Source: Erinaceus europaeus
Taxonomy: Eukaryota > Chordata > Mammalia > Eulipotyphla > Erinaceidae
Direction of reading: 5' to 3'
Assembly: GCF_950295315.1 (NCBI RefSeq)
Contig: NC_080165.1
Location: forward strand, 9,078,417-9,142,416
Length of the DNA stretch: 64,000 nucleotides
Shown here: positions 12,365 to 62,228 of the stretch, in pieces
Numbering within the stretch: position 1 is the first letter of the stretch
Layout: each line of letters opens with the position of its first letter
The notes under the pieces: generated by a model
Seen by the model: the letters and a program-made list of their open reading frames with translations, nothing else
Databases searched by the model: none
Told to the model about the DNA's origin: nothing
Program-made: the position numbers and the translations under genes

Positions 12365-12481
12365 GAAATGGTGGTGGTGGGGGTTCCGATTGCCACCTTT
12401 TCCCCCCTTTTTGCCTTCTGTTCCAAGGTGATATTCCACTGACTTTTGTTCCTCCCCTCTCTTCTTTTTCATTTCTTTCAG

Positions 12482-13133
12482 CTGGGATTCCTCAGCTCCA
12501 TCACAGCTCAGCCCGAGCAGAAGTCTCCAAATCTTATTGGCAAATACCATCATGTTGACCGTGCCACCGGCCAGGTCCTAACCTGTGACAAATGTCCAGC
12601 AGGAACCTATGTATCTGAGCACTGTACCAACACCAGCCTGCGTGTCTGCAGCCGTTGCCCCATGGGGACCTTCACCAGGCATGAGAACGGCATAGAGAAA
12701 TGCCATGACTGTAGCCAGCCATGCCCTTGGCCAATGATTGAGAAATTACCTTGTGCTGCCTTGACTGACCGAGAATGCACTTGCCCGCCTGGCACGTTCC
12801 AGTCTAACGGTACCTGCGCCCCCCATACGGCGTGTCCTGTGGGGTGGGGCGTGCGGAAGAAAGGGACGGTGTTCGAGGACGTGCGCTGCAGGCAGTGTGC
12901 TCGGGGTACCTTCTCTGATGTGCCTTCTAGTGTGATGAAATGCAAAGCATACACAGACTGTCGGAGTCAGAACCTCGTGGTGATCAAGCCAGGGACCAAG
13001 GAGGCAGACAACATCTGTGGGACATTCCTTTCCTCCTCCAGCACGAACTCGCCTTCCCCTGGCACTACCATCTTTTCTCACCCCGAGCACCTGGAGTCCC
13101 TTGAAGTCCCTCCCTCCACTTATGTTCCCAAAG
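12482..13133 (+). CDS. TNFRSF21: TNFRSF21 (death receptor 6) exon 2: end of signal peptide and cysteine-rich domains
   Basis: DR6 is a type I membrane receptor of the TNF-receptor superfamily; its known roles are neuronal death and axon pruning (with APP fragments as proposed ligand), T/B-cell regulation and JNK/NF-kB signalling. This exon begins after the AG at 12480-12481 with LGFLSSITA, the end of the signal peptide. The mature start QPEQK follows. By alignment with the human numbering I remember, it covers about residues 33-249 and all four TNFR cysteine-rich repeats. Eighteen cysteines are visible from TCDKC to NICGT. N-glycosylation sequons NTS (N82) and NGT (N141) are kept. The frame is open throughout and ends in phase 1, with the glycine codon split before the GT at 13134. 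An upstream in-frame ATG at 12446 lies in the intron and is not the start. Identification is by direct recognition of the protein. Confidence 0.97.
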
Positions 13134-14673
13134 GTAACCCAACCTTGTGAGTTAATTATTTGAGGAAGACTTTGAGCTCAGTGGCAGCGCCAAGAATGGG
13201 ATTGTATGTACAGGGATGTTTTTCTTCTTTTCTGTAGCCCATAATCACCCTTTGAAGAAGGGGGCTACCATTCTGTGCCTAATTAAATATGGATTCTTTG
13301 AACCTATTAGAAAGACTTTAAGCTGAGAAATTTTGGGGTAGGGGGGGACTCAGATATCTAAAACTAGGTCAAATTCAGCCAGAAAATAAGAACTGGAAAA
13401 AGAAAGAAAGAAAGAAAGATAGCATAGGGACCTTTTATAAATCACTTCTTCAGATCTTGGTTTCAAGCTTGTCAAATACATGAGTGATTCAGATGTTTAA
13501 GGTTCATTCCAGATTGAAGTTTTTTTTTTTAAATATGGAATCAATCCTAGATAGCAAGGAGGAAAGAAGAAGAGAGAAGCAGAGGAAATACAATAACTTC
13601 TGGAAGAGAGATAAATGATGGATCCAAGGGCAGGAGAAAAGTTAGAAGCTTCAGGAAACATGCAAATTTGTATTAACTTTAGCAAACAGTAAACTTTTTT
13701 TTTTGTAAGTGATGTTGACTTCATGTCTTTCATCAAATATCCTTGTTTTTTTCAATTCAGTTTGAGCTGTAGACAGAACATAAAATTCAGTCTTTATTTT
13801 TAAACCTTTTGGGGCTGAATGAATACTTAATTTAATTTCTTATGAAATCATAGCCAACTTGTCCTGTCTAGCAAAGTCTCATGCGTTAGAAAGTTTGAGT
13901 TTATGTTAGTCTACCTGTGAGGAGAATCTTAAACTGCCATTTGGAATTGGAGAACTAGGTCCAAAAGCTCAAGTGACCTGTTCAGGTTATCTCAGAAACA
14001 GATACAGGTCAAGTCCTGTCTCTTGTGGTTTGAGAATGATCAGCTGGAGCCTAGTGCCTCACACCACTCGGTGGTGGTCCTGAGACACATTCATGGTTTC
14101 TGGTGACTTGCAAGTCTTGCTCCTCTCCTACTCCTTAACAAAGACACCTTGTGGAGACTTCTCTGAAAGAAGTCCACTAAACTTCCCACTAAACTTCTTG
14201 TTTATCTACTAATAGCAAATATAAAGAAAGTTCTGTCTTATTTTATTCGTTGACCTCTCACCAAACCTGGATGTGAGTTTGAGCTATTTAGTCATTGTCC
14301 CCATTTTACCATTGCACCAGGGCAATCAGAGTTTGAGAGAGGAGGCATTAAGTTCAGGCTTGTTCTCCGAAGAATCAAAATGATTACAAGTCGGCTAAAG
14401 CGGTGAACTCAGTCTTCTCTGTGTGCTCAGCACAGGAGAAGTTGCTGTTGTTGGATCAGATGTTGGACCCCTCATTATGTTTTTAAGCAGAGGGCAGAGT
14501 GTAGCTTTTACCTTGCACAAATAGGTGTGTTTAGGGTCTTGCTGGAAAGGTGGAATCTATTCTTAAGCTCCAAAGGTCATCTGACCTAGTTTGAAGATGA
14601 CCAGGAAAAGGAGAGGATATATAGAGCCCCAAATATAGAAAAGCTCTTCCCCCTCCTTACTCTTATTTTCTAG
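13134..14673 (+). other. TNFRSF21: TNFRSF21 intron 2
   Basis: This short intron (1,540 bases) has GT at 13134 and AG at 14672-14673. A pyrimidine-rich tract precedes exon 3. Apart from a short (AAAG)n run and weak MIR-like segments it holds no repeat I can recognise, and it is the only SINE-free intron in the window. Confidence 0.93.
13399..13418. repeat. (AAAG)n short run
   Basis: There are about five AAAG units in intron 2. Confidence 0.9.
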
Positions 14674-19349: not shown

Positions 19350-19626
19350 GTCTTTTTTTAAAAGTTATTTATATATTCCATTTTGTTGCCCTTGTTTTAT
19401 TGTTGTTGTTACTGATGTCGTCGTTGTTGGACAGGACAGAGAGAAATGGAGAGAGGAGGGGAAGACAGAGAGGGGGAGAGAAAGACAGACACCTGCAGAC
19501 CTCCTTCTCCACCTGTGAAGCGACTCCCCTGCAGGTGGGGAGCCGGGGGCTTGAACCGGGATCCTTATGCCGGTCCTTGTGCTTTGCACCACGTGCGCTT
19601 AACTCGCTGCGCTACTGTCGACTCCC
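19350..19626 (-). mobile_element. SINE type A
   Basis: The full antisense copy has its tail at TTATTTATATATTCC and its head end at CTACTGTCGACTCCCC. Confidence 0.91.
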
Positions 19627-38897: not shown

Positions 38898-39225
38898 TTA
38901 TATAATTTCATGTCACATATCGGTTAGATTGATATATCAATCTGTTAAGTATGATTTAAAAAGAAAGCATAAAATAAACATCAAGTAAAGTAATAAAATA
39001 CAAAGGCCAATTTCCCTGCCACCCAGCTCAGTCAGTGGGACCTTGAGATTCCGTCTATGAACTTCCTCCACTATAACAGCGATATTTCTCTCTGTTCCAT
39101 GTATCTGCTTTGACTTCATTATCCACTGCTTTTCTTTATTGGTGGTATTGCTTAGTATTTAGTATGTCTCACTTTTTTAATTTTTATTTTCAAAGTCTGA
39201 TCACATTTTGGTGTTCACGGGTACT

Positions 39226-39382
39226 TTTTTTTTTTTTTTTTTAAGATTTTATTTATTTATTCATGAGAAAGATAGAAGGAGAGAGAGAACCAGACATCAC
39301 TTTGGTACATGTGCTGCCGGGGAATGAACTTCAGGACCTCATGCTTGAGAGCCCAGTGCTTTATCCATGGCACCACCTCCAT
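39226..39382 (-). mobile_element. SINE type C
   Basis: A poly(T)/AAGATTTTATTTATTTATTC tail, GGTACATGTGCTGCCGGGG, CTCATGCTTGAGAGCCCAG and CATGGCACCACCTCC mark a complete antisense copy. Confidence 0.88.
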
Positions 39383-39675
39383 GGGTACTTTCTTTTCTTG
39401 ATGATAAGCTCTGTGAAGATTTCAGTTCATCCAATACCAAGGTGTAGCGGGCACTCAAGAAATACTCTTGAAATACCCCCCCCCCCTTTTCCACATTTGG
39501 TGGTGGTGATGGAGTAGGATAGGGTACAGTGAACTCAAAGACAGCTTTTGAATACTCCCCCCGATCCTGATGGAGTTTCATAATCATGTATTATGCTTAG
39601 GGACTGCTTTCTCCAGAAGTGGTTCTTCCTGCCACTGTTAGATAGCTACATTTATTATGTATTTTGCCTTTAGCA

Positions 39676-39932
39676 TTTTTACGGGGGCTCAGTGTCTGCT
39701 CTGTGACTCCAGCACTCTTGCTGGTCCTCACCCCACCCCGCCCCCATTTCTTTCCTTTACTGATAAAGACAGAGAGAAGGAAAGAGGGAGGAAAGAAAAG
39801 ATAGACCCACAGAACTGTCTCACCACTCATGGAGCCTCCTCCAACCCTGCAGGTGGGTCCCGAGGACTAGAACCCAAGTCCTTGCACATGGTGACGTGTG
39901 TGCATCACTGACTGTGCCATTCACAGGCACCT
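39676..39932 (-). mobile_element. SINE type A/B-like, diverged long form
   Basis: GGGGCTCAGTGTCTGCTCTG (second domain), CCCTGCAGGTGGGTCCCGAG and CACTGACTGTGCCATTC are recognisable but degraded. Confidence 0.65.
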
Positions 39933-40020
39933 GCCATCTTGGATTCATCAACCCCCAAACGAGAGGCCCTTGTGAGTTAACTCCATGGCTTCATAATACA
40001 ACAGTAAGAATTGGGTTTTA

Positions 40021-41055
40021 GATTTAACTTTCTTCTTCTTCTAGCGTTTGCCCTTCTTCCGTAGCCAGTCAACAGCGTCAGGTTGAGCCTGATGTAAAGT
40101 TTCGAGACCTCCTTTGAATCTGGAGAGGTGGCAGTCATTGACTATGTGGATCATAGTCTGTCTGGAGCCGCAGGGGCAGTTCGGGTCGTCTCTGGCTCCC
40201 CAGCGATGGAACATAGCGGCGCACCGGCCATGGCCTGTTCGATAGCGATGGAGGAGGGCCCAATCATCATGTGCTAGGTCAAAGCCGGGTTGACGCTCGC
40301 AGGGGTCTGTGATGAGGTGTTTGTTCTTGACCTCAGCTGACTGCCAACTCTGTTTCCAAGAGACTGGAACAGAGAAGTTCAGTGTAGGCGTAGGGGACCA
40401 GATTGGATGACGAGACGTCAAGCGTTGGACAGGGTGGGCGAAGATATCCGCGTATATTGGCAGATCCGGTCGAGCGTAGACGCGGGAAATGAACTTAGAT
40501 GATGCCGCATCCCGACGAATATCTGGCGGGGCGATGTTGCTAAGAACTGGCAGCCATGGAACCGGGGTGGAACGGATGGTTCCAGAAATGATCCTCATGG
40601 AGGAATATAATTTGGAATCGACCAAGTGGACATGGGGGCTACGGAACCATACTGGGGCACAGTATTCTGCAGTGGAATAGCATAATGCCAGAGATGATGA
40701 TCGCAGTGTGGAAGTGGCCGCGCCCCATGAGGAGCTGGCCAGTCTTGCAATGATGTGATTCCTCGCGCCCACCTTTGCTGCAGTTTTTATGAGATGTTCA
40801 TGAAATGACAGCGTGCGATCGAGAGTAACGCCAAGATAGACTGGCTGGGCTTCATGCCGGATTCTCGTATCGCCAAGCTGCACATTAAGCTCATGCGAGG
40901 CCGAGGCATGGTGTAAATGGAAAACAGATGATACCGTTTTTGCAGTGCTAGGGATTAGTCGCCATTTTTTACAGTAATCAGATATCAGAGACATGTCTTT
41001 CGTGAGTGTTTCTCGAGGATGTCGAACTTTGATGCCTGAGTTGCTAGGAAACTTA
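40021..41055 (-). mobile_element. 5'-truncated non-LTR retrotransposon of a non-L1 clade
   Basis: The - strand carries an uninterrupted frame of 317 codons (40994 to the TAG at 40041-40043). It starts just after the position where the RT YxDD motif is expected (a LATQAS stretch lies upstream) and continues through YLGVTLDRTLSF, STAEYCAPVW, SSMRIISGTIRSTP and WLPVLSNIAPP. These are thumb-region blocks of invertebrate-type APE LINEs. A C-terminal zinc-knuckle follows, CPCG x6 H x4 C (residues about 273-288), and then the end HQAQPDAVDWL. The stop codon is followed at once by an AAGAAGAAGAA tail, so there is almost no 3' UTR. The coding trace continues upstream to about 41050 in another frame, which indicates one single-base frameshift near 41005; the rest of RT, the endonuclease and ORF1 are missing. 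It is unlike L1 or BovB. The clade (jockey/CR1-like) is not settled. Confidence 0.85.
40029..40040 (-). repeat. (AAG)n 3' tail of the LINE
   Basis: On the - strand, AAGAAGAAGAAAG directly follows the TAG stop. A trinucleotide tail instead of poly(A) fits a non-L1 clade. Confidence 0.75.
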
Positions 41056-41815
41056 TTGTGTCCTCTTTTTTGTATGTGGGTGTACTTTCCCCCCTTTATT
41101 TCGTGGCTAAAAAAAGGCTATATAAACACTGGGTTTTTGGGAAAAGGAGCTGTTGTTAAGCTTAAGCCTTTTAAGCTCTGTAATTAGACTACAAAGACTG
41201 TGTACTTGTATCAGAAATGTATTTCGTCTTAAGTTTGTGTGTGTGTGTTTGTGTGTGTGTGCACGCTCAGTGTATGGAGCATTTATAATAAGGGGGTACT
41301 TCCAAAAATAAGTCAGCTCTAGAAAATGTTAATCAGCTCACCCCCAGGGACCAAAGTGAGTCTCTCCATTGTGCAGATGAAGAAACAGACATGGCAGTTA
41401 GTGGTCTGCTGAGGGCTACTCTGTCATTGGCATTATGCATGAAGTTTTAGGCAGTGATCCCTGTACACGAGAGCTCAGTCATGTTTCCACATATGACACT
41501 GTGAACCCTCGTCAGATTGACCTAAATGAAGATTCAGTCTCACAAGTCTGGTTGTTTAGAAGAATCAATCACAATTAACTGGCATTCTTAACGTTACCTG
41601 TAAGGTTTTAAATAGGACTTTTTTTTTTTTTTAAGGAGCCAGTCTGTTGGAAATCATAAAGCTATCTGGTAAATATTGCAATGAAAACAGCAAAAGCAAC
41701 TGACTCAAGTGTGTCATGCTGCCAGGGAAACAGAGAAGTACAAGACTGTTGCAGTTCCTAGAGTCTGCCTTTACAGTTGACCCGAAAGCAGCCTTCTACT
41801 AGGAGAATGTTTTCT
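41056..41815. other. Intron 3 sequence without recognisable element
   Basis: Nothing is assigned apart from a GT run at 41235-41262 and a MIR-like patch near 41370-41400 (GCAGATGAAGAAACAGAC). Confidence 0.5.
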
Positions 41816-41882
41816 CCTCCTCCTCCACCTCCTCCTCCTCTCCCTCTTTCACCTTTCTCTTTCCCTCCCCCTTTCCTCCTTC
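41812..41882. repeat. Pyrimidine-rich (TCC)n-like tract
   Basis: Interrupted TCCTCC and CTTTCC units cover about 70 bases. Confidence 0.85.
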
Positions 41883-42111
41883 CTGATTGTTCACTTGTCA
41901 TGGGTTTGATCACTTGGGCTGATTTTTAGGAAAGGAGAAAGGGAAAGGAAGGGATGAAGGAAGGAAAAAAGGAAGGCAGGCAGACAGGCAGGCACCACAA
42001 CACTGAAATGTGGGATCTAGGCTGGAACCTGGCTTATGGCCATGACAAAACAAGCAAACACGTTACTCAAGGAGGGTATTTTACTCACCTAGAACTTATT
42101 ATTATATCTTA

Positions 42112-44328: not shown

Positions 44329-44404
44329 AAACAAACATATAACCGGTAGACATTATATAATGACCGTGCCTCACATGCTTGTGTTTGGTTTGTCTTGGCT
44401 TCAG

Positions 44405-44670
44405 GTATCGACATCCTGAAGCTTGTAGCAGCCCAAGTGGGAAGCCAGTGGAAAGATATTTATCAGTTTCTGTGCAATGCCAGTGAGAAGGAGGTGGCCG
44501 CTTTCTCCAACGGGTACACAGCAGACCATGAGCGGGCCTATGCCGCCCTGCAGCACTGGACCATCCGGGGGCCCGAGGCCAGCCTTGCCCAGTTAATCAG
44601 TGCCCTGCGCCAGCACCGGCGTACGGACGTGGTGGAGAAGATCCGGGGACTGATGGAAGATACCACCCAG
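44405..44670 (+). CDS. TNFRSF21: TNFRSF21 exon 4: death domain
   Basis: The exon completes the split glycine and encodes 88 codons from [12 protein letters not shown] to GLMEDTTQ, which is essentially the whole cytoplasmic death domain (about residues 415-503 by human numbering). This six-helix module recruits TRADD-type adaptors. Recognisable blocks are [24 protein letters not shown] and [12 protein letters not shown]. There is no indel or stop. The exon ends in phase 0 before GTAAGA at 44671, so the next exon, beyond the window, should open in frame with the C-terminal tail. It sits between two retroelements: a family X copy ending about 80 bases upstream and an L1 3' end beginning about 85 bases downstream. 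Confidence 0.97.
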
Positions 44671-44754
44671 GTAAGAAACCCAGGGTTGTCTGTCGTTTCT
44701 GTGAACCTGTTTGTCCCTGTGCTTCAAATTTTACCAAATAAGGGGAAAATAGCT

Positions 44755-45066
44755 CGTATTGGGTTCACAAAAAAGCCAGAAAGGGAAGGAAATCGATGGG
44801 ATGATCCCACACATAGAAGTTGAAAAATAAGGACAGAAGGGAAAAACAGTAAGTAGAACTTGGACTGTATTTAGTGTAGGGGCACCAAAGTTAAGGACTC
44901 TAGGGTGGGGGGAGTGTTCAGATCCTGTTCCATGATGGTGAAGGAGGGCCTGGGGGGTTGTTTAGAGTCTTATCTGGAAAACTGAGAAGTGTTACACATG
45001 TACTGTATCTTACTGTCGACTGTAAACCATTAATTCCCCCAGTAAAGAAAATAAAAAGATAAAAAA
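44755..45066 (+). mobile_element. L1 LINE 3' end, just downstream of exon 4
   Basis: GGGTTCACAAAAAAGCCAGA, AGAACTTGGACTGTATTTAG, a G-rich tract and ACTGTAAACCATTAATTCCC followed by AGTAAAGAAAATAAAA are visible. The 5' truncation lies about 85 bases after the splice donor. Confidence 0.88.
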
Positions 45067-48175: not shown

Positions 48176-48850
48176 TTTTTTTTTTTTTTCATTTCTTTAT
48201 TGGGGAATTAATACTTTACATTCAACAGTAAATACAATAGTTTGTACATGCATAACATTCCCCAGATTCCCATTTAACAATACAATCCCCACTATGTCAT
48301 TCATCATTTTTCATGGACCTGTATTCTCCCTACCCACCCACCCACCCACCCACCCCAGAGTCTTTTACTTTGGTGTAATATTCCAATTCCATTTCAGGTT
48401 CAACTTGTGTTTTCTTTTCTAATCTTGTTTTTCAACTTCTGCCTGAGAGTGAGATCATCCCATATTCATCCTTCTGTTTCTGACTTAGTTCACTCAACAT
48501 GATTTTTTCAAGGTCCATCCAAGATCGGCTGAAAACAGTGAAGTCACCATTTTTTACAGCTGAGTAGTATTCCATCGTGTATCTAGACCACAACTTGCTC
48601 AGCCACTCATCTGTTGTTGGACACCTGGGTTGCTTCCAGGTTTTGGCTATTACAAATTGTGCTGCTAAGAACATATATGTACACAGATCTTTTTGGATGG
48701 ATGTGTTGGGTTCCTTAGGATATATCCCCAGGAGAGGAATTGCAGGGTCATAGGGTAGGTCCATTTCTAGCCTTCTGAGAGTTCTCCAGACTGTTCTCCA
48801 CAGAGGTTGGACCCATTGACATTCCCATCAGCAGTGCAGGAGGGTTCAAA
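48176..48850 (-). mobile_element. L1 LINE 3' end, 5'-truncated
   Basis: From left to right it has a poly(T), the 3' UTR end TTTCTTTATTGGGGAATTAA, a C-rich tract (48332-48356, G-rich on the element strand), and an open frame of 110 codons on the - strand. The frame (YTMEYYSAVKNGDF, DPAIPLLGIYP) matches the C-terminal part of L1 ORF2. The 5' truncation lies at about 48850. AAAGGTTTTTTT occurs on both sides and fits a target duplication. Confidence 0.92.
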
Positions 48851-50438: not shown

Positions 50439-50900
50439 CGTTCTCTCTTTCTACTAAAGTAGATAGATTTAGATGTAGTTGTGCTTTAAATCCCAGAATT
50501 CCTTCATTATTTTCTTGAATAAAAGGAAATTTAAGGACATTTTAAAAGGATAATGTTGCAAAGTAACCATAGCAATTAAAAATAATATGAAGTATTACTT
50601 TAGTGGCTGCTTTGACCAGGGATTCACAAATGCAAAGGACTGGCGTTAGTCAGGCAGGAGCGTTGAGCTCTTTTTATGGTCTCTTCGATAGATTGTGGAG
50701 AGTCAGATGCCTTTGTAGCTAAGCTCTTAGTAGGCGTGGCATCAGAGCCACTGTGTTTGCTGTTGTTCATGTCTGTGGCATAAAGTGATTCTTTGTTAAG
50801 CTGTCAGTTTGCTCTGTTTGATCAACTGGGAGAATCGGCAGTGAAATGAGCTCTGGGTATGCTGTGTGACTGCTCCTGCTGCAGAGGGTGACACACTTAG
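50439..50900. other. Intron 4 sequence without recognisable element
   Basis: Nothing assignable is seen. Confidence 0.5.
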
Positions 50901-51046
50901 TTTCTCTCTCTCTCTCTCTCTTTCCTTTCTCACCCTCCCTCCCTCCCATCCTTCCTTTCTTGCTTCCATCCTTCCTTTCTCTGTCTCCTCTTTCTTTCTT
51001 TCTTTCTTTCTCTTTCTCTCTCTTTCTTTCTTTCTTTCTTTCTCTT

Positions 51047-51096
<50 letters not shown>

Positions 51097-51220
51097 TCCT
51101 TTCTCTGTCTCCTCTTTCTTTCTTTCTTTCTTTCTCTCTTCCTTTCCTTCCTTTCTCTCCTCTTTCTTTTTTCTTTCTTTCTTTCTTTCTTTCTTTCTTT
51201 CCTTCCTTCATTCTTTCCTT

Positions 51221-51266
<46 letters not shown>

Positions 51267-51276
51267 TTTCTTTCTA
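50901..51276. repeat. Compound (TTTC)n/(CT)n/(TTCC)n polypyrimidine tract
   Basis: About 375 bases are almost pure pyrimidine on the + strand. Higher-order duplication of CTTTCTCTGTCTCCTCTTTC blocks is visible. Long K/R/E-rich or F/L/S-rich frames across it are artefacts. Confidence 0.96.
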
Positions 51277-51778
51277 CTTACCAGCTGCAGGGCGCAGCTG
51301 TCCTCATCTACAGTCCGACTGACACCAACTATTTCCAGCAATCTACTCCAGTGAAGATAAGTCGCGGCAAATACAAGCTACACATTCAACCTCGTGCTGT
51401 TTGGTTATTTGCATTTGTCTTTGCCCTCAGTTTGTCAGCCGGCTCTTGGAAATAGGGCTGTTAGGTAAACTGCCACCATCAAGCCCTGCCATCTGCTGCT
51501 CTCCGGAGTGTGAAGGGTCATTTAAGGTCAAGTTGCTCTCTTGCAGGGTGTAATTGTGGGGCCTGGAGAAACTTGTGAAGGGTGAGAATGGAATATAAAG
51601 GGATTACTGATGCATACTAGGCCTATCGATTCGATTCTTGTGAATAAACCTTTCAATTGTCCTTTAATTTACACCCTTACCAGATTTCTTAAAAATTACA
51701 TTGGGAGAAGTCAGAATCAACATCATGAAAGGAGACTGGTTGCGTCTACCAGTGCTGGAGATCATATTTTCATTTTTA
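51277..51778. other. Intron 4 sequence without recognisable element
   Basis: Nothing assignable is seen. Confidence 0.5.
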
Positions 51779-61981: not shown

Positions 61982-62228
61982 GGAGTCCGGTGATAGCGCA
62001 GCAGGTTAAGTGCAGGTGGCACAAAGCGCAATGACTGGCGTAAGGATCCCGGTTCGAGCCCCCGGCTCCCCACCTGCGGGGGAGTCACTTCACAGGCGGT
62101 GAAGCACGTCTGCAGGTGTCTGTCTTTCTCTCCCCCTCTCTATCTTCCCCTCCTGTCTCCATTTCTTTCTGTCCTAGCCAACAACGACAACATCAATAAC
62201 AACAACAATGATAACTACAACAGTAAGA
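61982..62228 (+). mobile_element. SINE type A
   Basis: The copy is complete from GGAGTCCGGTGATAGCGC to ATAACTACAACAGTAAG. It follows a truncated SINE of the same type and orientation. Confidence 0.91.

Follow-up and report, generated by a model that had tools for sequence, protein, structure and literature searches.

The Vingi clade of non-LTR retrotransposons was named by Kojima, Kapitonov and Jurka (2011) after its expansion in hedgehogs. Vingi is described from hedgehogs and reptiles, anole lizards among the latter, and ancient Vingi traces (X12_LINE) as well as one pre-amniote Vingi protein fossil are described from the human genome. For Erinaceus europaeus, a table from 2011 gives 311 copies of Vingi-1N3_EE with less than 1% divergence, and the passage on hedgehogs counts their Vingi among the 'older' likely horizontal transfers, with families common to several descendant species (PMC3183009). 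Hedgehog Vingi lends itself well to the question whether mammals acquire LINEs sideways or harbour them unseen, which has been in print since 2011.

The locus described here is, with high confidence, a non-LTR element of the Vingi clade, in a young copy that was 5'-truncated and dead on arrival; it most likely belongs to Vingi-1_EE or a closely related sister and lies antisense in an intron of hedgehog TNFRSF21. We infer the clade and the family name Vingi-1_EE from the literature and from general background, and the hedgehog as host from the element and from the original suggestion. Such an element is already known, as Vingi was reported from hedgehogs in 2011, so that the single copy itself is ordinary. 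A second, undescribed young invasion of mammals by Vingi, with a placental host other than the hedgehog, is very improbable. The window, i.e., the whole 64-kb stretch of DNA that was analysed, contains the following features of the element and its host gene, P0002 being the closest relative of the fragment among public proteins:

40044..41044, minus strand: 5'-truncated LINE fragment, very probably of Vingi type, with the C-terminal part of an EN-RT protein (tblastn of P0002)
40041..41012, minus strand: uninterrupted homologous frame of 323 codons plus the stop TAG (homology to P0002)
41009..41016, minus strand: region in which the frame slips by one base compared with P0002 (tblastn of P0002 splits into two pieces that differ in frame, each frame translated separately)
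40131..40178, minus strand: C-terminal C-x-C-x7-H-x4-C knuckle (translation; motif of the relatives)
40030..40041, minus strand: (AAG)n 3' tail adjoining the stop (four TTC units on the plus strand)
12443..13150, plus strand: open frame that contains the TNFRSF21 (DR6) ectodomain exon (PDB 3u3p, E=1.4e-126; TNFR_c6)
44350..44823, plus strand: open frame that contains the TNFRSF21 death-domain exon (PF00531, E=1.3e-14)

The original prediction included a long stop-free frame, which is real. The minus-strand frame 40041-41117 comprises 358 codons from stop to stop; of 107 frames in the window that reach 90 codons, none is longer. When the window was simulated 100 times with an order-2 Markov model, its longest frame had a mean of 195 and a maximum of 270 codons. 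The extent given for it has to be corrected, as homology covers 323 codons and the stop, with 12 further residues in another frame. In tblastn searches with P0002, the main piece (41012-40044) is identical in 312 of 323 residues (96.6%) and the second piece (41044-41009) in 11 of 12 residues. The different frames of these two pieces indicate a one-base frame slip at about 41010-41015, near the 5' end of the fragment. Upstream of about 41044, tblastn of P0002 against the window gave no match, which suggests that the remaining codons up to 41117 are open by chance. Alignments of some more distant relatives start as far out as 41144, whereas P0002 gives none there. As placed by the P0002 sequence, the fragment starts just past the RT motif YADD and the RT palm motifs are located upstream of the truncation point. 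No Pfam model matched the fragment, RNase H models included, a PDB search gave no match up to E=1, and an Rfam search of 39000-42000 returned nothing at gathering thresholds. The fragment is therefore a dead, 5'-truncated copy with a frame slip near its 5' end.

At the other end, the stop codon occupies 40041-40043 on the minus strand and is adjoined by the AAG repeat, which leaves a 3' UTR of almost nil. The AAG-type tail and the near-absence of a 3' UTR had both been predicted correctly, but the tail comprises the four units at 40030-40041, and the evidence for the element stops short of 40021-40029. In a comparison of the flanks 41011-41130 and 39941-40060, neither an exact 7-base target-site duplication nor one of 10, 12 or 14 bases with 1, 2 or 3 mismatches, respectively, was found. 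This is either a mark against target-primed insertion or the sign of a complicated 5' junction. Further copies of the element in the 64-kb window amounted to two 18-base matches, which is chance level. When 211 relatives were aligned by tblastn to the rest of the window, the pieces obtained had E=0.05 or weaker; the one exception, an antisense piece of P0002, lies within the element.

LINEs insert by target-primed reverse transcription. A tail at the 3' end and a truncation at the 5' end are both seen in this copy, and from established LINE biology we infer the following course of events. The protein of a full-length element, carrying an APE endonuclease, an RT and a CCHC knuckle, would have nicked the TNFRSF21 intron, and reverse transcription would have begun at the AAG-ended 3' end of the element RNA. 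Copying would then have halted after about 1 kb, and no more than the 3' third of the coding sequence would have been inserted. The resulting copy yields no working enzyme, and its open frame reflects youth and not selection.

The copy is young, as seen from its little decayed CpG and its near-identity to P0002, from which it differs in 11 of 323 residues. CpG observed/expected is 0.84 in the element (56 CpGs in 1,024 bases) compared with 0.26 in the whole window, and does not exceed 0.49 in any of the 952 sliding stretches (1,024 bases, step 64) that lie clear of the element. A simple neutral model puts the probability of the frame staying free of stops at 0.70 for 1%, 0.35 for 3%, and 0.03 for 10% divergence. 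An open frame is thus what one would expect of a young neutral copy, and it needs no function; selection on the frame was considered and rejected on these grounds.

By its TNFRSF21, the host is a placental mammal. Although the death-domain frame 44350-44823 had no PDB match up to E=0.001, Pfam then identified the domain, and the joined translations of the TNFRSF21 exons have up to 92% identity to mammalian TNFRSF21 (Pteropus alecto; among the best 120 of 439 matches). These 120 matches, each representing a cluster at 90% identity, include none with a hedgehog name. The element is oriented antisense to TNFRSF21 and resides in the intron preceding the death-domain exon, in agreement with the predicted intronic location. 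The surroundings are rich in other repeats. SINE-like repeats, apparently tRNA-derived, are dense on both strands throughout the window, e.g., 19399-19614 and 61994-62209 with 89% identity. An open frame at 48432-48827 on the minus strand, without a Pfam match at 1e-3, resembles the C-terminal end of L1 ORF2. Long simple-repeat tracts of TTTC/TTCC extend over 50899-51302.

In a database of 5.8 billion proteins, 593 proteins match the fragment at E<=1e-3, and the best 120 of these 593 and the best 120 of 2,384 matches were examined. The motifs quoted in the original prediction are present in the translation, including the knuckle, which in the form C-x-C-x7-9-H-x4-C is found near the C-terminus of 182 of 211 relatives, followed by a median of 29 and a maximum of 106 residues. 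The assignment to LINEs of the APE type, probably outside L1, is likewise borne out: among the matches listed, relatives of about 950-1,020 aa carry Exo_endo_phos, Exo_endo_phos_2, and RVT_1. The truncated window copy itself has no APE-type endonuclease, this domain being seen in the relatives. When six relatives were rescanned with Pfam, EN and RT were found in four of them (P0124, P0127, P0169, and P0133) and RT without EN in the two shorter ones, P0122 (767 aa) and P0178 (876 aa). None of the six had an RNase H model. Vingi reportedly lacks RNase H according to the authors who named the clade, and this lack separates Vingi from Ingi. Clades other than Vingi are also devoid of RNase H, so its absence is no proof of Vingi. 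No match carries the label Vingi among the matches listed.

Ten of the matches listed, a minority, are named proteins, and they originate from eight species: a turtle, an eel, a sand fly, a fungus gnat, a beetle, a psyllid, a pseudoscorpion, and a planthopper. The turtle protein (P0041) has 54% identity and the eel proteins (P0055 and P0117) have 52% and 58% identity. The original prediction had tied this kind of element to invertebrates; a restriction to them is not supported in view of these vertebrate matches and of the reports of Vingi from hedgehogs and reptiles. A quickly built tree (80 rows: the window plus 79 of the 211 relatives; rooted at the midpoint, with SH-aLRT as its only support measure and one long branch flagged) pairs the window with P0002 (support 100) and next with five other proteins (support 92). 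Together with turtle and eel, the window falls within a group of 66 rows (support 99), and all seven named arthropod proteins are found in a separate 14-row group.

P0002 is a public protein from an ENA contig of 2,072 bases. It carries RVT_1 (Pfam, E=1.7e-32) and includes the RT palm that is absent from the window copy. At its N-terminus, 16 of 20 residues are identical to the translation of the element's opposite strand (40403-40462, plus strand), from which it follows that P0002 is itself rearranged or a chimera. At the start of its contig, a segment of its own 3' region stands in inverted orientation, either through 5' inversion as in twin priming or through an assembly chimera. P0002 could be hedgehog DNA or DNA of a donor. 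When viral contigs were scanned with P0002, two stretches matched, and neither is a relative.

Several routes could have brought such an element into this intron. If an ectoparasite such as a tick, the source originally suggested, had recently passed the element on in a so far undescribed horizontal transfer, this would agree with the recent activity that is evident from little CpG decay and a near-intact frame, and the 97%-identical P0002 may itself be donor DNA. Recent activity, however, differs from recent arrival. Of the predicted recent horizontal entry, the youth of the copy is borne out and a horizontal entry into hedgehogs is a published suspicion, but the passage in question calls the transfer 'older' (PMC3183009). 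P0002 aside, no relative among 208 exceeds 59.6% identity when 200 or more residues are aligned, which lends ticks no support and argues against a recent arrival from any donor with good coverage in the database. None of the ten named proteins among the matches listed comes from a tick, flea, or nematode, and the named arthropod proteins all fall outside the window's 66-row group under midpoint rooting. A tick-borne transfer of this kind is accordingly considered highly improbable. The same low standing is given to an assembly chimera or contamination, which the original prediction had offered as the other possibility. The CpG content of the element is unlike that of its surroundings and the flanks yielded no target-site duplication; high CpG, however, is expected of a young copy, and a 5' truncation with a tail at the 3' end fits ordinary retrotransposition. 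As the literature documents this kind of element in hedgehogs, contamination is not needed as an explanation.

A larger share of probability, although still a minor one, is assigned to vertical persistence, i.e., an old amniote Vingi lineage that was kept by descent, remained active in hedgehogs, and was lost or had decayed in other mammals. Vertical descent retains some plausibility because of the ancient Vingi traces published for the human genome (X12_LINE and the pre-amniote protein fossil), and the occurrence of Vingi in anole lizards and the turtle protein among the matches point in the same direction. Against it, the tree neighbours that follow P0002 are the five other proteins and not the turtle. 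In addition, Vingi was reportedly absent from 33 other mammals that were examined in 2011. The authors who named the clade reportedly left room for vertical descent. The reading of the locus as a young Vingi copy in the hedgehog holds with high confidence; on whether the lineage entered mammals horizontally or survived in them, a single truncated copy adds little.

Compared with known systems, the window copy has its nearest counterpart in P0002, which is alike in the 312 residues given above and alone has the RT palm. The turtle protein P0041, the eel proteins P0055 and P0117, and other proteins from public contigs share the same C-terminal frame and carry EN and RT when they are full length, but the closest of them differ from the fragment, with 52-60% identity. 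Vingi-1_EE and its non-autonomous derivatives such as Vingi-1N3_EE, as described from the European hedgehog, likewise form a recently active non-L1 LINE family, from which the window copy differs by its 5' truncation; this likeness is drawn from the descriptions. RTE1_Sar of the common shrew is another LINE for which horizontal entry into a eulipotyphlan has been proposed. In contrast to the window copy it belongs to the RTE clade, it was not detected in the hedgehog in that study, and it is likened here by description (PMC6542046).
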